From a virus, in the IMG/VR virus record IMGVR_UViG_3300032050_000922, positions 1 through 21,666 of that record: DNA of 21,666 bases, one strand, 5' to 3'. This document shows, one piece after another, positions 3,647 to 16,081 of the stretch; position 1 is the stretch's first letter; each line of letters opens with the position of its first letter. Under the pieces are notes generated by a model. The model had not been told where the DNA came from and did not search any database. It was given only the letters and a program-made list of their open reading frames with translations. The position numbers and the translations under genes were made by a program.

Positions 3647-3982
3647 TTAGAGTTTGGTAGCGTAATATTCTTCTGTCTTGATAGAAACAGTGATGGCGCT
3701 GCTGCCAACATTGGCAAAGCCAGTTATTTTATCGTTCTTGTCTAGATAGAGAGGCGCAGTGATTTGAAGAATACTACGAGGCTTCATTCTCACAGCATCC
3801 ATAATGTCATATGACACAGCATCAACAGCACTATACCACTGTATCGTTACATTAATCGTTACATCACTTCCATTAGAAACAAAGATGCTGCTAACGTCAG
3901 CTTTGAATGCTGAGGGGACAACGTAGATGTCTTGTGGACTTGTTGTCAGCGCCAACGCCACTGTTCGTTTCTTATTACTCAT
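3647..3982 (-). CDS. Small beta-rich virion-type protein, 111 aa
   Basis: The chosen start (MSNKKRTVALAL) lies one base after the TGA of the 419-aa gene (TGATATG) with GGTG just upstream. The longer in-frame start at 4030 would overlap that gene and has no advantage. The sequence alternates hydrophobic and polar residues (VSSIFVSNGSDVTINVTIQW, then SILQITAPLYLDKNDKITGF), which suggests an all-beta sandwich. No catalytic motif is visible. Its position between a large virion-type protein and terS makes a head-decoration, neck or fibre-accessory role reasonable, but that is inferred from context only. Confidence 0.75.
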   Translation of the reverse strand: MSNKKRTVALALTTSPQDIYVVPSAFKADVSSIFVSNGSDVTINVTIQWYSAVDAVSYDIMDAVRMKPRSILQITAPLYLDKNDKITGFANVGSSAITVSIKTEEYYATKL

Positions 3983-8506: not shown

Positions 8507-8653
8507 CATGGTTGCGACTCGGAAGCCTTTCGACATTAGGACGCTGCCTTCGCCATCCTGTTGCGCTGTTTCAATGTCTATCCCGCAGTAGCGCTTTAAC
8601 GTCTTTGCAGACGCTGCCAGATGCTGCCGTTATCCGTTCATCCGACAGCGCCA

Positions 8654-9220: not shown

Positions 9221-9250
9221 TTGACTCGGACATTAAAAGGTCGGCACAAT
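9221..9250 (+). promoter_or_regulatory. Rightward promoter P1
   Basis: TTGACT (9221-9226), 18-bp spacer, CACAAT (9245-9250), followed at once by GCATCCCATCG, which is shared with P2 and P6. It precedes the 73-aa gene. Confidence 0.6.
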
Positions 9251-9282
9251 GCATCCCATCGAAACAACGGCATCCCGCCGAG

Positions 9283-9293
9283 TCCTGAAAGGA
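9283..9293 (+). promoter_or_regulatory. Shine-Dalgarno hairpin of the 73-aa gene
   Basis: TCCT-GAA-AGGA: the ribosome site AAAGGA forms one arm of a small hairpin with a GAA loop, 8 nt before the ATG. This is the shortest (4 bp) of the family. Confidence 0.5.
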
Positions 9294-9301
9294 AACATAG
9301 C

Positions 9302-9523
9302 ATGTGCAATCAAGTGGAAGTTATCCGCATCGTCTTTCACGAAGTGAAAGGGGATGATGGCAAGTGGACGAAGACGAGCCGTGCGTTTATGAGCAATGCT
9401 GACGCAGTGCGTGAGATTGAAACGCTGCAAGAGTTTGCAAAGCAAAGGCGCCCATTCATCCGTAAGGTGGTGCCTGAGCCTATGCTGACGGTGCTGTACC
9501 CGACACAAAACCCCTTCGCTTGA
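9302..9523 (+). CDS. Unknown 73-aa early protein
   Basis: The product begins MCNQVEVIRIVFHEVKGDDG and is a small soluble, mixed alpha/beta-looking protein. The start at 9302 is fixed by the AAAGGAAAC ribosome site 8 nt upstream; a longer frame would begin inside promoter P1. The stop codon overlaps the -35 box of promoter P2. I do not recognise a family. As the first gene of the rightward arm it is likely expressed very early and might modify host functions, which is inferred from position only. Confidence 0.7.
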   Translation: MCNQVEVIRIVFHEVKGDDGKWTKTSRAFMSNADAVREIETLQEFAKQRRPFIRKVVPEPMLTVLYPTQNPFA

Positions 9524-9533
9524 CAGGGTTTTT
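9507..9533 (+). terminator. Intrinsic terminator overlapping promoter P2
   Basis: AAAACCC (9507-9513) pairs with GGGTTTT (9526-9532) and ends in a T run. The hairpin loop contains the stop codon of the 73-aa gene and the -35 box of P2. Confidence 0.5.
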
Positions 9534-9549
9534 CGTAAGCCCCGATAAT
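9520..9549 (+). promoter_or_regulatory. Rightward promoter P2
   Basis: TTGACA (9520-9525), 18-bp spacer, GATAAT (9544-9549), then GCATCCCATCG. Strong match to the sigma70 consensus; drives the gp88-like gene. Confidence 0.7.
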
Positions 9550-9579
9550 GCATCCCATCGACGGCACAGTGTCATCGTC

Positions 9580-9592
9580 TTCCTGAAAGGAA
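9580..9592 (+). promoter_or_regulatory. Shine-Dalgarno hairpin of the gp88-like gene
   Basis: TTCCT-GAA-AGGAA, 5 bp with a GAA loop, encloses the ribosome site 5 nt before the ATG. Confidence 0.5.
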
Positions 9593-9597
9593 ACATC

Positions 9598-10242
9598 ATG
9601 ATCCGTATCAGCGTCACCAGCAAGCTTGATGGCAATCGCTCATGGAGCTTGCAAGCTCTCGACACTTGCCCCGGTAGCATCTCTGCCGCTGGTGTACTTG
9701 TAGATGCATGCTCTGGTTGCTATGCAACGACGGGCAACTACCACTATCCCAACGTGAAGGAGCCACGCATTGCCAATCGTGAAGATTGGAAGCGTGATGC
9801 ATGGGTTGATGACATGGTGGTTGCATTGGCGAAGGACAAGTTCTTTCGCTGGTTCGACAGTGGCGACATGTATGCTCTCGGCCTTGCCGAGAAAATCTAT
9901 CAAGTGATGCAGCGTACACCATTAACCCGCCATTGGTTGCCTACTCGCATGGCGAAGTTTGCCAAGTTTGCCGACGTCATCCGTAGGATGAAGGCGCTTG
10001 ACAATGTGTCCGTTCGCTTTAGCAGCGACAGCATCGATGGTGTGTATGGTGCAGAACATGGCTCTGTCATTGTCCACGATGCTGAGTCTGCCCCTGAAGG
10101 TGTGTTTCTGTGCCGTGCTTACGAGAACGATGGCAAGTGCAGCGGATGCCGTGCATGCTGGAACAAGGATGTGCCTGTCATTGCCTACCCTGCCCACGGT
10201 GCGAAGATGATGAAGGTGATTAGGTTGAGCGCCGTACACTGA
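9598..10242 (+). CDS. Gene-product-88-like cysteine protein, 214 aa
   Basis: The sequence matches the phage gp88 domain pattern (mycobacteriophage L5 gp88 type): TCPGSIS with C24, ACSGCYATTGNY with C38 and C41, a conserved RWFDSGDMYALGLAEKI block (about 84-100), TRHWLPTRM, and a C-terminal CRAYENDGKCSGCRACW with C172, C181, C184 and C187. Seven cysteines in two groups suggest a metal or iron-sulphur site, but no activity is established for the family that I know of. The ATG follows a strong AAAGGAAAC site; an earlier in-frame ATG at 9520 is inside the promoter and is rejected. It has its own promoter (P2) and a GC-rich hairpin after the stop. Confidence 0.8.
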   Translation: MIRISVTSKLDGNRSWSLQALDTCPGSISAAGVLVDACSGCYATTGNYHYPNVKEPRIANREDWKRDAWVDDMVVALAKDKFFRWFDSGDMYALGLAEKIYQVMQRTPLTRHWLPTRMAKFAKFADVIRRMKALDNVSVRFSSDSIDGVYGAEHGSVIVHDAESAPEGVFLCRAYENDGKCSGCRACWNKDVPVIAYPAHGAKMMKVIRLSAVH

Positions 10243-10250
10243 ACGACGGA

Positions 10251-10273
10251 GGGGCTGTAAGCCCCACGTTTTC
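10251..10273 (+). terminator. Terminator-like hairpin after the gp88-like gene
   Basis: GGGGCT-GTA-AGCCCC (10251-10265) is followed within 2 nt by GTTTTC. The T run is short, so termination may be partial. Confidence 0.45.
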
Positions 10274-10287
10274 GAAAGACCCTACGT

Positions 10288-10317
10288 TTGACAGGGCTTT
10301 TCGAAAGCGTCAATAAT
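10288..10317 (+). promoter_or_regulatory. Rightward promoter P3
   Basis: TTGACA (10288-10293), 18-bp spacer, AATAAT (10312-10317). The -35 box lies in the loop of CCCT/AGGG (10280-10296), followed by TTTT, the same promoter-in-terminator layout as P2. No gene follows directly. Confidence 0.6.
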
Positions 10318-10323
10318 GTAAGC

Positions 10324-10465
10324 AATGCAGCACGATGCGAGTCGGTGAGAAGCTAGCCGGGTGATGCCGGGTTCCGACAGACACATCATGCTGAAGTGTG
10401 ACGGAGCATGTAGGTTACATGTAACGTTGTGCGAAAGCTGACGGCAGAGTCGAAAGGCCCTGCAG
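10324..10465 (+). ncRNA. Candidate structured RNA from promoter P3
   Basis: No open frame longer than a few codons follows P3. Instead there are GTCGG/CCGAC (10341-10378) enclosing CCGG/CCGG (10357-10370), CATGCT/AGCATG (10387-10410) and the perfect palindrome GTTACATGTAAC (10414-10425). It does not fold as a tRNA. Ends are guesses; it may be a long leader or a small RNA. Confidence 0.35.
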
Positions 10466-10495
10466 TTGACTCGGGAAATGACATCGCCCTACAAT
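10466..10495 (+). promoter_or_regulatory. Rightward promoter P4
   Basis: TTGACT (10466-10471), 18-bp spacer, TACAAT (10490-10495). It leads into a hairpin-rich stretch rather than a gene. Confidence 0.6.
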
Positions 10496-10501
10496 GGATG
10501 C

Positions 10502-10740
10502 CTCGGCAAGCCTCGGTTTGCCATCGATGCGAAAGCGTCAACGCTCTTTAACAACCCGCTGCTAGTGTCGGTGCATGTGACAGATGCACTATGGACTAGC
10601 GTGAATGATGCATACGTCAATGTGTCATGCACCATCACACATGGTGCTGAAAATGTGTGAGCTTCCCCGAGTGAGAGTGGGTGCTCTTGCGTTAGGGGGT
10701 TTTCTTCAGCGTTGCGAGTCAGCGCTGAACAAAGCAATGG
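10502..10740 (+). ncRNA. Candidate structured RNA from promoter P4
   Basis: Perfect stems follow one another: GCTAGT/ACTAGC (10561-10566 with 10595-10600) enclosing GTGCAT/ATGCAC (10571-10576 with 10584-10589), GCACCAT/ATGGTGC (10629-10647) and TTCAGCG/CGCTGAA (10705-10729). The only open frame (64 codons, to 10660) starts inside the promoter, has no ribosome site and is not protein-like. A regulatory RNA or structured leader fits better; the ends are not determined. Confidence 0.4.
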
Positions 10741-10742
10741 CT

Positions 10743-10756
10743 TTTCCGAAAGGAAA
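10743..10756 (+). promoter_or_regulatory. Shine-Dalgarno hairpin of the 65-aa gene
   Basis: TTTCC-GAAA-GGAAA: here one T of the usual loop is missing, leaving a GAAA tetraloop while the stem is kept. The ATG is 6 nt downstream. Confidence 0.5.
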
Positions 10757-10761
10757 CAAAC

Positions 10762-10959
10762 ATGTGGAATAAGCAAGGCATGCAAGTGAAGGCAACGTAT
10801 CACGGCAAGTATGTGTCGGGCGTTGTCACATCTAGCCGCGTCAAGTATGGCGGCACAGTGCAGCACACCATCTCCCTCAATGCACCTATCATGCTGCGTT
10901 GGCGCAGTGAGCCGGTGCATACTGTTCTGGTTGACGACGACAACGTTGTCCTTTCCTGA
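10762..10959 (+). CDS. Small beta-rich early protein, 65 aa
   Basis: The product MWNKQGMQVKATYHGKYVSG continues with VVTSSRVKYGGTVQHTISLN and ends TVLVDDDNVVLS. The alternation of strands and turns suggests a small beta-barrel fold. I recall similar short phage proteins with the VTSSRVxYGG...QHT pattern but no function. A clear GGAAA ribosome site lies 6 nt before the ATG. The TGA stop is also the loop of the next gene's Shine-Dalgarno hairpin, so termination here should directly affect the next start. Confidence 0.75.
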   Translation: MWNKQGMQVKATYHGKYVSGVVTSSRVKYGGTVQHTISLNAPIMLRWRSEPVHTVLVDDDNVVLS

Positions 10960-10966
10960 AAGGAAA
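10952..10966 (+). promoter_or_regulatory. Shine-Dalgarno hairpin of the 24-aa membrane peptide gene
   Basis: TTTCCT-GAA-AGGAAA, a perfect 6-bp stem. The upstream gene's TGA stop supplies the first bases of the loop, so ribosomes finishing that gene would open the hairpin. Confidence 0.55.
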
Positions 10967-10970
10967 CATC

Positions 10971-11045
10971 ATGACATACACACTGCTTGTGCTATTCGCT
11001 CCCATCATTCTGATGGGCATCGCCATCATCATCGCTGGAGAATAA
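10971..11045 (+). CDS. 24-aa single-pass membrane peptide
   Basis: The peptide MTYTLLVLFAPIILMGIAII plus IAGE is almost entirely hydrophobic and long enough to span a membrane once. It is preceded by the same AAAGGAAACATC site as its larger neighbours, which argues that it is truly translated. Promoter P5 starts 8 nt after its stop. Small phage membrane peptides can alter host membrane proteins, superinfection or lysis timing, but no specific role is shown. Confidence 0.65.
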   Translation: MTYTLLVLFAPIILMGIAIIIAGE

Positions 11046-11053
11046 CCCCACGC

Positions 11054-11083
11054 TTTACTCGGCTTTGATAACGTCGATATAAT
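11054..11083 (+). promoter_or_regulatory. Rightward promoter P5
   Basis: TTTACT (11054-11059), 18-bp spacer, TATAAT (11078-11083). The spacer is nearly identical to that of P6, showing duplication of the cassette. Drives the 72-aa gene at 11121. Confidence 0.7.
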
Positions 11084-11120
11084 TGTCGGCATCACTTCCT
11101 CCTCACACAAAGGACACACC

Positions 11121-11339
11121 ATGTACATGAACGCAATGGTCACAGAATGCGACGTCACTGGTGCCCGTTATGATGCACCAGTTGCGGGTTCATATGCGGT
11201 AGCACGTGGTGCTACAGGGCGTTGGTGTGTAGTGCTTGCCTTCGGCCCAGAGGCAACAAAGCAACATGCTGGTAAGCTGTTGAGCGAAGACGATGTAAGA
11301 AACATCGTCGAAGCAAAGGGGGAATGGCTCGACTATTAA
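11121..11339 (+). CDS. Unknown 72-aa early protein
   Basis: The protein MYMNAMVTECDVTGARYDAP continues with a beta-rich segment (GSYAVARGATGRWCVVLAFG) and a C-terminal helix (LLSEDDVRNIVEAKGEWLDY). The ribosome site AAAGGA lies 8 nt before the ATG; unlike its neighbours it is not in the compact GAA hairpin, although TCCT occurs further upstream. No family recognised. It has its own promoter P5 and ends 8 nt before promoter P6. Confidence 0.7.
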   Translation: MYMNAMVTECDVTGARYDAPVAGSYAVARGATGRWCVVLAFGPEATKQHAGKLLSEDDVRNIVEAKGEWLDY

Positions 11340-11347
11340 CCCCACGC

Positions 11348-11377
11348 TTTACTCGGCTTTCACAACGTCGATATAAT
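11348..11377 (+). promoter_or_regulatory. Rightward promoter P6
   Basis: TTTACT (11348-11353), 18-bp spacer, TATAAT (11372-11377), followed by GCATCCCATCG as in P1 and P2, then a GCAGC/GCTGC hairpin (11389-11403). Confidence 0.7.
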
Positions 11378-11408
11378 GCATCCCATCGGCAGCACTTCGC
11401 TGCTCTCT

Positions 11409-11419
11409 TCCTGAAAGGA
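11409..11419 (+). promoter_or_regulatory. Shine-Dalgarno hairpin of the 59-aa gene
   Basis: TCCT-GAA-AGGA, 4 bp, 6 nt before a GTG start. This site is the reason the GTG at 11426 is chosen over an in-frame ATG at 11324. Confidence 0.5.
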
Positions 11420-11425
11420 CACAAC

Positions 11426-11605
11426 GTGAACGACATCATCTCCGCCATCCGCCGCACCCTGCAACGTAAGCTTGCCCGCTACGTCATCACCGTCTATTGG
11501 GAAGGCGACACGTTCAAGCACTATACATTCAAGCGTAATGAAATCAGGGAATGGGTTGACGCCTACCCTGCCGACGTTGACACCATCGTCATTGCCCGTT
11601 ACTAA
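11426..11605 (+). CDS. Unknown 59-aa early protein, GTG start
   Basis: Starting at GTG, the product is MNDIISAIRRTLQRKLARYV followed by ITVYWEGDTFKHYTFKRNEI and REWVDAYPADVDTIVIARY. It is a basic N-terminal helix followed by strands and a helix. The upstream in-frame ATG at 11324 lies in the end of the previous gene and would read through promoter P6, so it is rejected. The AAAGGA site fits the GTG. No known family. Confidence 0.7.
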   Translation: MNDIISAIRRTLQRKLARYVITVYWEGDTFKHYTFKRNEIREWVDAYPADVDTIVIARY

Positions 11606-11613
11606 CCCTCCGC

Positions 11614-11628
11614 TTTCCTGAAAGGAAA
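11614..11628 (+). promoter_or_regulatory. Shine-Dalgarno hairpin of the 135-aa gene
   Basis: TTTCCT-GAA-AGGAAA, a perfect 6-bp stem identical to that at 10952-10966. The short spacer here lacks a -35/-10 cassette, as if the promoter had been lost between CCGCTTT and CCTGAAAGG. Confidence 0.55.
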
Positions 11629-11632
11629 CACC

Positions 11633-12040
11633 ATGACATTGTCCGCATCAATCGCAGGTAAAGTATTCGTCTACTTCAATCTGCATCGCAAGTGCCTCAG
11701 CATCAAGGCGCTGGAGGGTGAATACAAGGGTAAGGTGATAGGCTATGCCGACACGGTGGCGCTGCACAATTGCAAGTTCAAGGTGTCAGAGGCAGGGCGT
11801 CAGCGTGTCATCCGTGAGAAGCGCAAGAATGTGCATGCTGGTGTTGTCGGACACCTCATAAGCCTCAATCCCTGCGGCTATTTCATCGACGCCATCAAGA
11901 ACATCGGCAGCCCCGTCAAATATAACCCATACAAATATACGTCATTCGTTCATGCTGTGAACGAGACACCTGTACATGAGGCACGACACGTTGCCATCAT
12001 TGCCAGCAATGGCAAGGCTTCCATCTTTGCGGAGACTTAA
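11633..12040 (+). CDS. Unknown 135-aa early protein
   Basis: The protein MTLSASIAGKVFVYFNLHRK contains KVIGYADTVALHNCKFKVSE, RVIREKRKNVHAGVVGHL and NIGSPVKYNPYKYTSFVHAV. The KRKNVHAGVVG stretch followed by conserved-looking aromatic residues suggests an enzyme or nucleic-acid-binding fold, but I cannot name one. It starts after a perfect AAAGGAAAC site. It probably depends on promoter P6 or upstream transcripts because no promoter of the local type precedes it. The next gene starts 2 nt after its stop. Confidence 0.75.
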   Translation: MTLSASIAGKVFVYFNLHRKCLSIKALEGEYKGKVIGYADTVALHNCKFKVSEAGRQRVIREKRKNVHAGVVGHLISLNPCGYFIDAIKNIGSPVKYNPYKYTSFVHAVNETPVHEARHVAIIASNGKASIFAET

Positions 12041-12042
12041 AC

Positions 12043-12261
12043 ATGCTCTCACATCGTTTCTACCTATCAGGTGGCAGCAACGGCTGGTGCATCAACGACG
12101 CAGCAATGGGCATGCCAGTGTGTGCTGACAAGCGTACACCACAGGCTGCGTTGGAGGTGGCGAAGGAGCTGAAGCTCGACATCTCCCCGCAGATGTGGTG
12201 CAGGAACACGCTGCAATGGGTTGACATCGTTGCCACGCTGTACAAAAGCCCCTCTGCTTGA
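12043..12261 (+). CDS. Unknown 72-aa early protein
   Basis: The product MLSHRFYLSGGSNGWCINDA continues AAMGMPVCADKRTPQAALEV and ends DIVATLYKSPSA. The start lies 2 nt after the previous stop, with GGAG in the last codons of that gene as ribosome site, so the two are coupled. The TGA overlaps the -35 box of promoter P7. No family recognised; it looks like a small alpha/beta protein. Confidence 0.7.
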   Translation: MLSHRFYLSGGSNGWCINDAAMGMPVCADKRTPQAALEVAKELKLDISPQMWCRNTLQWVDIVATLYKSPSA

Positions 12262-12287
12262 CTCAACAAATATCTTTCGCTTACACT
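12258..12287 (+). promoter_or_regulatory. Rightward promoter P7
   Basis: TTGACT (12258-12263), 18-bp spacer, TACACT (12282-12287). The -10 is weaker than in P5 and P6, but the spacing and the overlap with a stop codon match the series. Drives the DUF932 gene. Confidence 0.5.
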
Positions 12288-12296
12288 TCAATCCGT

Positions 12297-12336
12297 CGCA
12301 GCAATGTCGCTGCAACAAACGCAGCAATGTCGCTGC
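12297..12336 (+). repeat. Tandem 17-bp repeats forming two leader hairpins
   Basis: CGCAGCAATGTCGCTGC occurs at 12297-12313 and again at 12320-12336. Each copy can form GCAGC/GCTGC with a 6-nt loop, in the leader of the DUF932 gene. The same stem sequence appears in the leader after P6. Confidence 0.7.
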
Positions 12337-12340
12337 CTCC

Positions 12341-12351
12341 TTCTGAAAGAA
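12341..12351 (+). promoter_or_regulatory. Shine-Dalgarno hairpin of the DUF932 gene
   Basis: TTCT-GAA-AGAA: compared with TTCCT-GAA-AGGAA elsewhere, one C and its partner G are both missing, so the stem is kept although the ribosome site becomes weaker. Confidence 0.45.
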
Positions 12352-12356
12352 ACATC

Positions 12357-13211
12357 ATGCGTCAATCCCTCATCTTCTCCCGTCGCACCGACAACGGCAT
12401 CATGTCTGCAAACGACATCATGTCCCGTGCTCCTGCCGTGTTCTCTGACACGAAGGCATCACGACTGACCGACCGTTACCAATCTCTGCGTACTAGCGAC
12501 CTGCTGCCTGTCATGGCAGACTACGGCTACTTCCCGACACAGGCTGCACAGAAGCGTGTGACGAAGGCATCGCCGGTTGCTGCCGAGCATAAGACACACA
12601 TGGTTGCGTTTGCCAAGCATGACGACAACGGCAACGGTAATGTGAGAGGCGAGATCATTGTGTACAACAGCCACGACGGCACCTCTGCAGTGCGGTTGTT
12701 TGCTGGTGCCTATCGCTTCATCTGCAGCAACGGCATCGTTGCTGGTGAAGGCATGCAACAGCGCATCCATCACACTGTCAAGTCGCTGGCAAACTTCGAG
12801 GAGTCGCTGCGTACCACCGTCAGCAATCTGCCGATGGTGCTGGCAGCGCTTGAGGCTGCACGTAACATCACCCTCGACGGACAACAGCGCTATGAGCTGG
12901 CGAAGCAAGCGGTGATGAAGCGTTGGGGCTTGTTCGACGACACCATCGTCGACGTTGACGGACGCCCCGTGAAGGGCAGCTATGCCACGACGAAGACCAT
13001 TGCTGATGCTCTCGGTGTACAGCGTAGTGAAGACGACTTGTCCGACGCCTTCACTGTGTGGAATCGCATTCAGGAGAATGTGTTGCGTGGCAACGTGATG
13101 ATCAAGTCCATCACCGACAACAACGTCGGCATGCGTAAGGCTCGACCCATCACCGCAGTGGCAGAGCATGTCCGTGTCAACACGGAGTTGTTCGACCTGC
13201 TGCCTGCATAA
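12357..13211 (+). CDS. DUF932 family protein, 284 aa
   Basis: The sequence fits the DUF932 / phage-plasmid-like (TIGR03299-type) pattern: RYQSLRTSDLLPVMADYGYF near 41-60, VAFAKHDDNGNG, GEIIVYNSHDGTSAVRLFAG, FICSNGIVAGEG and a helical second half ending NVGMRKARPITAVAEHVRVN. The family is widespread on phages and plasmids; its molecular role is not established. The ATG at 12357 is fixed by the AAGAAA site; an in-frame earlier start at 12258 lies in the promoter. Its length is within the usual range. A strong hairpin follows the stop. A 236-codon antisense frame over this gene is a shadow. Confidence 0.85.
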   Translation: MRQSLIFSRRTDNGIMSANDIMSRAPAVFSDTKASRLTDRYQSLRTSDLLPVMADYGYFPTQAAQKRVTKASPVAAEHKTHMVAFAKHDDNGNGNVRGEIIVYNSHDGTSAVRLFAGAYRFICSNGIVAGEGMQQRIHHTVKSLANFEESLRTTVSNLPMVLAALEAARNITLDGQQRYELAKQAVMKRWGLFDDTIVDVDGRPVKGSYATTKTIADALGVQRSEDDLSDAFTVWNRIQENVLRGNVMIKSITDNNVGMRKARPITAVAEHVRVNTELFDLLPA

Positions 13212-13238: not shown

Positions 13239-13350
13239 TCAGCCTCCGAAGGTGTGGCCCTTCCCAACGTGGAAGGGTCTGCCTTACAAGCCTCCGAAGA
13301 AGCCTAAGCCTGAGCCGGTGTGGAAGACAACTCCCCCGGCTCCTTTTTGA
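13225..13350 (+). CDS. Possible proline-rich microprotein, 41 aa
   Basis: From GTG at 13225 the frame reads MTSCPQPPKVWPFPTWKGLP then YKPPKKPKPEPVWKTTPPAP and F. Proline is encoded by all four CCN codons, and tryptophan and lysine alternate, which looks like a real proline-rich peptide rather than a repeat artefact. AAGGG precedes the GTG by about 10 nt. Against it, the start is in a hairpin loop, and the end overlaps an intrinsic terminator. A competing 24-codon ATG frame at 13233 is less convincing. Confidence 0.4.
   Translation: MTSCPQPPKVWPFPTWKGLPYKPPKKPKPEPVWKTTPPAPF
13312..13348 (+). terminator. Intrinsic terminator ending the promoter-cassette region
   Basis: GAGCCGG (13312-13318) pairs with CCGGCTC (13336-13342) and is followed by CTTTTT. 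A further CCCTTCC/GGAAGGG hairpin lies at 13258-13277. The downstream genes have no promoter of the P1-P7 type, so read-through or antitermination would be needed. Confidence 0.55.
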
Positions 13351-13360
13351 AGGAACACAT

Positions 13361-13552
13361 ATGCAACACGTTTGGGTAGTGGAGTCTCTTGGTGACGACA
13401 CACCAACATTGTTATCGGTGCATACCGATAAAGAATCAGCCAATGCAGCCCGCGATGCTTACGTCAAGAGCTACAGATATGGCGGCATTCAATCCGATTA
13501 TTGGATTCACTCTATGAAACTCAACCCGTGTTTGGTTGAGGATGATATTTGA
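13361..13552 (+). CDS. Unknown 63-aa protein
   Basis: The product MQHVWVVESLGDDTPTLLSV continues with HTDKESANAARDAYVKSYRY and ends CLVEDDI. The beginning resembles small phage proteins that start with a short strand pair and a helix. AAGGA lies 7 nt before the ATG, directly after the terminator. It is the first gene of the long coupled operon. No known function. Confidence 0.7.
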   Translation: MQHVWVVESLGDDTPTLLSVHTDKESANAARDAYVKSYRYGGIQSDYWIHSMKLNPCLVEDDI

Positions 13553-14051: not shown

Positions 14052-14257
14052 TAAGCGAAGTCGATCTGCGTGATTGGGAACAGCTTGATACAGTGCCGCT
14101 GTATTCTGTGCCGCGTAACACCTACATCAAATTGGGTGACGACTACTTCTTCTTCGATCACATCGATGGCATGTATTCATTCTGTCTCGACATGAATAAT
14201 ATGGTCTATCACATCATGGCAACAACCCCTGTCATTCCTCTGAGGAAACCTGCATGA
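14048..14257 (+). CDS. Unknown 69-aa protein, GTG start
   Basis: Translation begins at GTG 14048, overlapping the previous TGA, with AAAGGAAAA well placed upstream. The protein MISEVDLRDWEQLDTVPLYS contains NTYIKLGDDYFFFDHIDGMY and ends VIPLRKPA. It looks like a small beta-rich fold with many aromatic residues. The stop overlaps the ATG of the ADP-ribosylglycohydrolase-like gene, so the two may be produced together. No family recognised. Confidence 0.7.
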   Translation: MISEVDLRDWEQLDTVPLYSVPRNTYIKLGDDYFFFDHIDGMYSFCLDMNNMVYHIMATTPVIPLRKPA

Positions 14258-15081
14258 AACGTGAACAAGTTGTCGGTATGTTCGTCGGCGTATTCCTTGG
14301 CGATATGCTGGGTGCGCCATACGAGTTTCAAGATGAGATGGACGTTGACGACGTTGTTCTCAAGACAGGCGGCGCTCACAAGGTGTCGTTGGGCGAATAC
14401 ACCGACGACGGAGCGCTGACGTTAGCTCTTGCAGAGAGCTACATTGCCCGTGGCTGCTTCGATGCACACGATGCCAGCAATCGGTTTAAGCAATGGAAGA
14501 CCACTGGCAAGTATGGCACACGTGGCTATGCCTTCGACATTGGACGCACCACTGCAGCAGCCATCGACAGGATGCCTTCTGTTGTGTACGCTGCAGATGG
14601 TGGAGACATGGACAGTGGCAACGGTAGCATGATGCGTATTGCTGCCTGCATTGCTGCCAACCACAACAACCCAATGAAGGCATTAGCAGATAGTATAGCT
14701 GCCAGCCTGATGACGCATGGCAACAGCGACATCCTCGCCTATACCACAGCATATGTCGATGAGATATTTAATGGAGCAATGTCGCGATATAAGTCGCTGA
14801 AGTCTCATCCAAATAAATATGCCCATGCCAGAGGCACGGTGATGTATGCATACAACGCTGCTCGACATGCCCTGCATCATGGTGGCAGAGATGGTGGCGC
14901 TGTGCTGCGTCATGCCATATCATATGGACACGACACCGACACCAACGCTGCCATTGCTGGTGCTTGGGTAGGTGCGAAGTATGGCATCGATTGCTTCCCA
15001 CAGGAATATATCGATGTGCTGCAGAATAAGCAACGCATCTTCGATGTGGCAAATAAGTTGTTTGAGATGGGAGAGATGTGA
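14254..15081 (+). CDS. ADP-ribosylglycohydrolase family (DraG/ARH-type) protein, 275 aa
   Basis: The ARH fold signatures are in order: GVFLGDMLGAPYEF (12-25), the metal-binding EYTDDGALTLALAES (T50, D51, D52), SGNGSMMR (121-128), MTHGNSD (H155) and the second metal site GHDTDTNAAIAGAWVGAKYG (D227, D229, T230). Such enzymes use two magnesium ions to remove ADP-ribose from proteins, DNA or small molecules. The usual S/T after TDD is a Gly here (TDDGA), which may alter substrate choice or activity. The start overlaps the previous stop (ATGA) with GAGGAAA upstream. In a phage it may reverse host or phage ADP-ribosylation, including a defence based on ADP-ribosylation; that role is inference. Confidence 0.88.
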   Translation: MKREQVVGMFVGVFLGDMLGAPYEFQDEMDVDDVVLKTGGAHKVSLGEYTDDGALTLALAESYIARGCFDAHDASNRFKQWKTTGKYGTRGYAFDIGRTTAAAIDRMPSVVYAADGGDMDSGNGSMMRIAACIAANHNNPMKALADSIAASLMTHGNSDILAYTTAYVDEIFNGAMSRYKSLKSHPNKYAHARGTVMYAYNAARHALHHGGRDGGAVLRHAISYGHDTDTNAAIAGAWVGAKYGIDCFPQEYIDVLQNKQRIFDVANKLFEMGEM

Positions 15082-15785: not shown

Positions 15786-16081
15786 GCGGTGGATATTTCA
15801 ACTACGATCAATATAAGATTGGATATATCGTCCACTCCATTGAGCAGCTTGTTATTAATAATGACAGCAAAGAGCTTAATGACTGGGGAAATGCCAAAGG
15901 CAGAGGCTATTCCAAAGACACCATCGAAGCCTTCGAAGAAGCCATCTTCTTTCTACGCACTGCACAGATATATGCACATCGCATAGATTGGTTGGTGAGT
16001 GGAGATGATGGTGAAGAAAACTTTCACATCCGTCTCAACAAAGAACTGGAAGAGGAACAGCATGATAAAGCTGAAACGTAA
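15782..16081 (+). CDS. Conserved phage protein with IYAHRIDWL...SGDDGEENFHIRL, 99 aa
   Basis: The start at 15782 (MSGGYFNYDQYKIGYIVHSI) overlaps the previous stop as ATGA; an earlier in-frame TTG at 15752 is less likely. The protein has an acidic, helical composition with AFEEAIFFLRTAQIYAHRID and WLVSGDDGEENFHIRLNKEL. I recognise this pattern as a widely distributed phage family of about 100 aa that I cannot assign a function to. The 3' end overlaps the next gene by 20 nt. Confidence 0.75.
   Translation: MSGGYFNYDQYKIGYIVHSIEQLVINNDSKELNDWGNAKGRGYSKDTIEAFEEAIFFLRTAQIYAHRIDWLVSGDDGEENFHIRLNKELEEEQHDKAET

Follow-up and report, generated by a model that had tools for sequence, protein, structure and literature searches.

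Background

Translation start sites are usually expected to be free of structure. The nearest published kind to the element described here is the Start-Associated Sequence (SAS), known together with an extended form (ESAS) from cluster K mycobacteriophages (PMC3203893) and cluster EF Microbacterium phages (PMC7302621), where the function is unknown. According to the portions of these two reports covered here, SAS are fixed 13-bp sequences, GGGATAGGAGCCC in cluster K and GGGAAAGGACCCC in cluster EF, in which the Shine-Dalgarno (SD) sequence lies between outer GGG and CCC. The present element was found in the IMG/VR virus record IMGVR_UViG_3300032050_000922, the whole 21,666 bp of which are referred to here as the window. 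It is a predicted weak hairpin of 4–6 bp before many early genes, with the SD sequence as its 3' arm and complementary bases just upstream as its 5' arm. It is like SAS in anatomy, but is not SAS by sequence.

SAS, as presented in those portions, and the hairpins are both repeated elements at the SD position a few nucleotides before starts, in one orientation (with rare exceptions for SAS) and rare in the host. Cluster K SAS are found among non-structural genes and the excess of hairpins is in the early block only. The SAS sequence is unmatched here, where the elements read TTTCCTGAAAGGAAA and variants of it. In the hairpins the SD sequence is one arm, stem and loop vary and the arms compensate, whereas the SAS sequence is fixed and hairpin covariation is not reported in the portions covered.

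Parts of two further papers offer other comparisons. In MS2 the coat protein clamps the TR hairpin that holds the replicase start, and translation of the coat gene opens the downstream start (PMC9894550). Starts in hairpins are common to both systems, here by sequence and predicted fold; however MS2 is an RNA phage with one such operator, while here there are many sites in DNA phages and the clamp protein is hypothetical. T4 RegA, a single factor that acts on about 30 mRNAs at their starts, resembles the control proposed below, although its sites are A+U rich and unstructured and those described here are predicted hairpins (PMC3014915). Autocontrol of T4 gene 43, an early gene, also involves a hairpin close to the ribosome site, which in T4 is a protein target (PMC3014915). 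The RegA family was not turned up in scans of the window proteins (10 and 9 proteins), and Rfam gave no match over the SD hairpins, its sole match in the window lying elsewhere. In a literature search on SD hairpins of phage early genes and on SAS, with subscription journals mostly outside its reach, no account of this element was recognised.

Association of SD hairpins with early gene starts

Seven SD hairpins with a GAA or GAAA loop had been claimed before early genes of the window by a sequence-only reading, and all of these are present, placed as described and with stems of 4–6 bp. When 3 mismatches or fewer are allowed, the 21-mer TTCCTGAAAGGAAACATCATG matches the window four times, against a shuffle mean of 0.01. 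The wider group was surveyed in 19 records of 39–62 kb that are whole or nearly so, one of them being the window's phage. The motif TCCTGAAAGGA has 86 copies in these records, of which 84 lie 3–12 nt before a start, compared with 4204 of 19000 random positions. Starts were counted for frames of at least 25 codons; of the two copies that do not qualify, one precedes the gene at window position 10971, with its 24 codons. Start-linked copies of five tested motifs lie on a single strand in each genome.

The association is with the early block. Of 258 early-block leaders with an SD sequence, 132 have a stem of at least 4 bp, while shuffling of the 5' side gives a mean of 58.8 and a maximum of 76. 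This count covers 18 of the 19 genomes (G018, which is without an early block, was omitted) with block limits set by hand, and gene calls behind the leader and early-block counts come from a simple caller or simple rules. Among other genes of at least 80 amino acids an SD stem is found in 86 of 639, which matches the shuffled mean of 85.9, and there is therefore no excess outside the early block. GAA loops dominate among the hairpin leaders.

Among viral contigs, at least 119 stretches match a 20-mer pattern of the element, individual stretches holding as many as six copies, and a 22-mer form matches 5 stretches of GTDB species genomes. Although the viral pattern is the looser of the two, this suggests that the element is mainly a phage feature. 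The pool of loci was largely fetched by the canonical motif (the viral stretches just mentioned), so counts of canonical stems in the pool are biased upward. When 39 GP88 loci were fetched by protein similarity alone and read by eye, six had hairpin leaders: two of the window phage (L123 and L124), the near relative L125 (TTCCC/GGGAA), L127 (TCACC-ATA-GGTGA), and L131 and L132, which are one sequence. A hairpin leader was not seen in the other 33, some of which match the protein as well as L127 or L131 do. The protein-similarity loci thus show a limited spread of the element.

Similar hairpins are found in unrelated phages. Corynebacterium phage P1201 (L239; 4388, 5020 and 5607) and Arthrobacter phage JEGGS (L241; 24741, 28790, 30982, 32075, 32585 and 47452) have YUU-GAA-ARG SD hairpins with paired outer bases and U-G pairs, a likeness that is probably due to convergence. 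JEGGS was rejected as a second case, as its SD hairpins are overall unenriched (14 of 82 versus 11.8) and the support consists of six TT-GAA-AGG leaders only.

Conservation of the pairing

The sequence-only reading had taken the variants of the hairpin as a sign of selection for structure. This is supported in that different stems pair at the same place and that pairing is above independence, although a tree-based test was empty (see Discussion). Stems that are complementary at the same place include TTTCC/GGAAA, TTACC/GGTAA, TATCC/GGATA, TTCCC/GGGAA, TCACC/GGTGA and AAACCT/AGGTTT. In 337 CC-loop-GG leaders, pair 3 is Watson-Crick in 231, versus 153.7 expected, and pair 4 in 205, versus 155.0 (each 0 of 2000 permutations). 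Matches to the search pattern were excluded from this set, which is pooled from all loci, some within coding sequence or before chance frames.

A second set comprises 126 distinct GAA cores that were selected on their 3' side without regard to the 5' side. Pair 3 is Watson-Crick in 76 of them, versus 51.3 expected (0 of 5000 permutations), and pair 1 is weakly above expectation (59 versus 49.0; 79 of 5000). Stem length in these cores is bimodal: 67 have none, 49 have 4–6 bp and 10 fall between. Noncanonical early leaders pair in 44 of 158 cases, whereas exchange of their 5' sides among themselves gives a mean of 31.5 and a maximum of 43 in 200 draws. Canonical 5' sides placed on noncanonical SD sequences (mean 107.8 of 158 pairing) were discarded as uninformative, because many noncanonical SD sequences also contain AGGA.

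Orthologous leaders can be compared for two families. An SD stem of at least 4 bp is present in all 40 distinct leaders of GP88-like orthologs, from loci that were mostly fetched by the motif. Six of these read TTACC/GGTAA, and that of Caudoviricetes sp. ctYwJ313 (MW202701) is UGUUC-UAUA-GGACA, with one U-G pair. For homologs of the L5-gp82-like protein the SD stem is found in 55 of 75 leaders, at least four of these rows being the same leader re-read from another start, and most of the others differ greatly in sequence before the start. Elsewhere in MW202701 (L181), the leaders at 3751 and 4572 have TTCTATAGGA at the SD position, where a hairpin with U-G pairs is possible.

Leaders of the window

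The element is placed either behind a gene's own σ70-like promoter, often with a second, variable-sequence hairpin upstream, or inside operons. Seven promoter-like sites lie on the plus strand at 9.2–12.3 kb, each with an 18-nt spacer; on both strands there are 8, against 3.3 expected. All of the features that follow are on the plus strand, and the leaders have near-identical stretches in common.

The gene at 9302 (73 amino acids) has a promoter-like site TTGACT-18-CACAAT (9221–9250), an upstream hairpin CGGC-ATCCC-GCCG (9268–9280) and a 4-bp SD hairpin TCCT-GAA-AGGA (9283–9293; −1.4 kcal/mol at 37°C). The leader of the GP88-family gene (9598–10242) has the same arrangement, with TTGACA-18-GATAAT (9520–9549), GGCA-CAG-TGTC (9563–9573) and the 5-bp SD hairpin TTCCT-GAA-AGGAA (9580–9592), which reads TTCCC-GAA-GGGAA in L125. 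Before the gene at 10762 (65 amino acids) the 5-bp hairpin is TTTCC-GAAA-GGAAA (10743–10756; −3.9 kcal/mol at 37°C for 10742–10756), where a variant with an intact stem had been reported. The 6-bp hairpin TTTCCT-GAA-AGGAAA (10952–10966) precedes the gene at 10971 and holds in its apex the stop codon of the upstream 10762 gene (TGA, 10957–10959). The hairpin-led gene itself (10971–11045) has 24 codons, and its hydrophobic product may be a small membrane protein. No SD hairpin of this kind precedes the gene at 11121, which does have a promoter-like site.

Further downstream, the GTG-start gene at 11426 is preceded by TTTACT-18-TATAAT (11348–11377), an upstream hairpin GGCAGC-ACTTC-GCTGCT (11388–11404) and the 4-bp SD hairpin TCCT-GAA-AGGA (11409–11419), and the L5-gp82-like gene (11633–12040) by the 6-bp TTTCCT-GAA-AGGAAA (11614–11628). 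The leader of the DUF932 gene (12357–13211) has TTGACT-18-TACACT (12258–12287), a possible upstream hairpin GCAGC-AATGTC-GCTGC in two copies (12298–12313 and 12321–12336) and a degenerate 4-bp SD hairpin TTCT-GAA-AGAA (12341–12351). A C-G pair was said to be lost from the latter with the pairing kept. Its bases can still be written as paired, but the stem is not predicted to be stable at 37°C (0.0 kcal/mol, and −0.9 at 10°C). Two SD hairpins with other loops follow, TCCTT-TTTG-AAGGA (13341–13354) before the gene at 13361 and TTCCT-CTG-AGGAA (14235–14247) before the ADP-ribosylglycohydrolase gene (14254–15081). A leader peptide from an ATG in the −10 box was considered and rejected: by eye, it is in frame with the apex stop in 2 of 3 window leaders, but the ATG is upstream of the expected transcription start.

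Fold stability and the second hairpin

The SD hairpins are weak. With the exception of that at 12341, predicted energies in the window lie between −1.4 and −3.9 kcal/mol at 37°C, a temperature at which six of the seven sites are predicted to fold, and between −3.7 and −7.4 at 10°C. Across the 19 records, the six most frequent variants are predicted at −1.4 to −3.3 kcal/mol at 37°C, and the range for less frequent ones is −0.5 to −4.5. In 125 leaders chosen for having the hairpin, the median predicted pairing of the SD sequence is 1.00, 0.99 and 0.98 at 10, 25 and 37°C. As this barely shifts, the element would seem to be unlike an RNA thermometer. The difference in median SD pairing at 37°C between hairpin leaders (0.98) and other genes (0.57) is not taken as evidence, since the sets were picked by the presence or absence of the hairpin.

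For the second hairpin, the 125 leaders were reduced to 121 by merging identical 38-nt upstream stretches; a few non-early chance hits remain. Leaders are called promoter-proximal if they have their own promoter-like site or are far from the upstream gene. Of the 66 promoter-proximal leaders, 49 have an extra hairpin within 38 nt upstream of the SD hairpin, whereas shuffles give a mean of 25.7 and a maximum of 35; the 19 of 55 found in operon-internal leaders do not differ from the shuffled 17.2. Its stem is highly variable, with 26 distinct inner arms among the 49, and when its halves are exchanged between leaders the share that pairs drops to a mean of 57% and a maximum of 76%. A subset of SAS also have an upstream repeat: in the covered portions of PMC3203893, about half of the cluster K SAS have a 17-bp consensus inverted repeat just upstream (ESAS). 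The hairpins found here are without a consensus of the ESAS type.

Gene content and other structured RNAs

A 59,944-bp IMG/VR record (G001), in which the GP88 and DUF932 proteins are identical to those of the window, represents the same phage. The named phages searched gave no near match to it. The best match of the DUF932 protein among them is in MW202701 (47.4%), and for the primase-helicase (51.4% with MW202701) Pelagibacter phage HTVC115P is slightly closer at 53.1%. To the left of about 8.4 kb there are long genes on the minus strand, and from 9.3 kb a plus-strand block that is called early from this layout. Products in and behind this putative early block are of the GP88 family, L5-gp82-like, DUF932, ADP-ribosylglycohydrolase, integrase, primase-helicase and several short unknowns.

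A conserved non-coding sequence lies at 10270–10735, for which an alignment of 9 sequences folds at −232, compared with −148.8 (sd 8.2) for shuffled columns, with both sides changed in 31 of 133 pairs. It includes a structured and strongly covarying RNA at 10537–10719, between a promoter-like site (10466–10495) and the 10762 gene, that starts with GCTCTTTAACAA (10543), which we take to be an rRNA-type boxA. In 19 aligned sequences there are two-sided changes in 19 of 29 predicted pairs, with 18 of 551 cells broken or gapped. The alignment holds 19 of 22 matches, L100:6628, L109:6273 and L241:39125 having been dropped by eye as unrelated, and the window replaces L001. Rfam has no match at E ≤ 1 over 10537–10719. 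This is a good candidate for a new phage RNA, separate from the SD hairpins, and is perhaps an antitermination (nut-like) site of the 10762 operon or a non-coding RNA. A further conserved non-coding stretch within the 9-sequence alignment, at 10318–10465, lies behind a promoter-like site at 10288–10317.

On the minus strand at 8517–8648, between the late and early blocks, is a match to the Betaproteobacteria-1 RNA (Rfam RF02932; 68.8 bits versus a gathering threshold of 49.4), which suggests a betaproteobacterial host. RF02932 was not matched in five 20-kb stretches of five relatives, most of which do not cover the corresponding junction.

The L5-gp82-like protein

One protein of the early block was examined as a candidate trans factor. 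The L5-gp82-like protein (PF25735, phrog_586) is present in 18 of the 19 genomes and missing only from the hairpin-poor G018. It is well conserved, with a mean column identity of 55% in an alignment of 26 of 67 proteins, in which the window protein stands in for the identical L089 copy. The family is wider than this phage group, as the reference to mycobacteriophage L5 in its Pfam name shows. The protein is basic, at +9 to +10 in three members that were checked, and its predicted model is of good confidence (mean pLDDT 89.1). There is one weak sequence match, to 60S ribosomal protein L21 (E 0.036).

Discussion

The explanation favoured here, although tentatively, is that these start-associated RNA hairpins are a translation-initiation element that is opened by the 30S subunit and later clamped in trans. 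The 30S subunit would easily open the weak hairpin, so that translation of the early genes could begin immediately upon entry. An RNA-binding factor of phage or host, or an RNA, might subsequently clamp or stabilise the hairpin, by which early translation would be lowered together; this is the least certain step.

Several observations weigh against this explanation, or against the selection on structure that it presupposes. Leaders that keep the site and have lost the pairing arm, which the sequence-only reading had named as contrary to it, do exist: 12 of 100 early AAGGAAA leaders are without a 4-bp stem, including several DUF932 leaders that read CCCCGAAAGGAAAC, and the DUF932 loci L166–L173 read CCGAAAGG, with two or three pairs. 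A covariation test, also proposed there, was run with a tree on 40 GP88-like leaders and gave no pair at E < 0.05; it had little power because the alignment slipped register at the loops and the stems vary little. The permutations ignore relatedness and their significance is therefore overstated. Pairs 4 to 6 of the 126 GAA cores have no Watson-Crick excess. Wobble enrichment was not found, G-U pairs being fewer than expected in the 337 leaders (pairs 3 and 4) and in the 126 cores (pairs 1 and 3); with AGGAA as the 3' arm, a single C-to-T change is seen in the 5' arm. The remaining 126 of the 258 early leaders have no hairpin. Stem sequences differ inside one genome (TTACC/GGTAA and TTCCT/AGGAA in G016), which is a poor fit to a sequence-specific binder. 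A fit to MS2 coat-hairpin expression, made for 42°C and a different SD sequence and taken from the covered part of PMC9894550, predicts that the window stems leave >99.9% of expression at 37°C, so that repression by the hairpins unaided seems unlikely. A trans factor was not found, the L5-gp82-like protein being the one candidate examined, and its model has no match among solved structures (no Foldseek hit at E ≤ 0.001; 0 of 750 VIA-align chains at Z ≥ 2). Selection on the structure is nevertheless likely, if not proven.

The strongest competitor, although it is the less likely of the two, is an insulator that acts in cis only: the weak local hairpin would block pairing of the SD sequence with upstream RNA, and shuffled early cassettes would be evenly translated with nothing bound. 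Weak stems that the ribosome should open easily, pairing that is retained while loop and stem sequences vary, and recurrence before unrelated genes, with or without a promoter, all agree with this. An insulator alone leaves unexplained the dominance of GAA loops and the excess in the early block only; the latter, a restriction to early genes, is the main reason for preferring the clamped hairpin. Translational coupling is unlikely to account for the element. In this model a ribosome that terminates in the apex, at a UGA or UAA of the loop, would melt the hairpin and make the SD sequence available for re-initiation, as for the MS2 replicase. It may fit part of the sites, since an apex stop codon ends an upstream frame of at least 40 codons in up to 31 of the 125 hairpin leaders and the 10762 gene of the window stops in this way. 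That count is an upper bound which includes chance frames (at 16010 in G001 the real upstream gene ends before the hairpin), and the 66 promoter-proximal leaders among the 121 have no close upstream gene or have a promoter-like site of their own.

It is improbable that a strong ribosome site was simply copied with its flank and the structure not selected. The near-identical stretches of the window leaders, the stemless AAGGAAA leaders, the empty tree-based test and the disregard of relatedness in the permutations are what copying would give, but it does not predict stems of different sequence that are complementary at the same place, a bimodal stem length, or noncanonical leaders that pair more often than in any exchange of their 5' sides. 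Two further explanations are very unlikely. Pairing might shield the SD sequence from a phage or host endoribonuclease that cleaves SD sites. T4 RegB is such an enzyme: it cleaves within GGAG/U, and secondary structure inhibits it (PMC3014915, in the part covered). The SD sequence is indeed within the stem, yet the stems are weak for this. The inverted repeat might otherwise be a DNA operator for a dimeric repressor behind early promoters, as several copies are close behind promoter-like sites and the pooled loci show no enrichment of G-U pairs. With 55 of the 121 distinct copies internal to operons, a short distance to the start, a single orientation, and U-G pairs in MW202701 and in the similar hairpins of P1201 and JEGGS, the evidence is against an operator in DNA.

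The repressor or early-to-late switch suggested by the sequence-only reading is possible in the form of the clamped hairpin. A broader proposal, which is doubtful, is an early-gene translational regulon in phages of about 52–62 kb, where a weak SD hairpin before many unrelated genes and operon positions would let one trans factor lower early translation at a set time. The similar design in actinobacterial phages could point to a general and overlooked form of phage control, and the published SAS may be included in it. The hairpin element offers a structural reading of these unexplained sequences. A phage group that keeps many early SD sequences in hairpins, with changes on both arms, is a testable case of coordinated translational control, and a trans factor, if there is one, would represent a new way for phages to switch many messages together.

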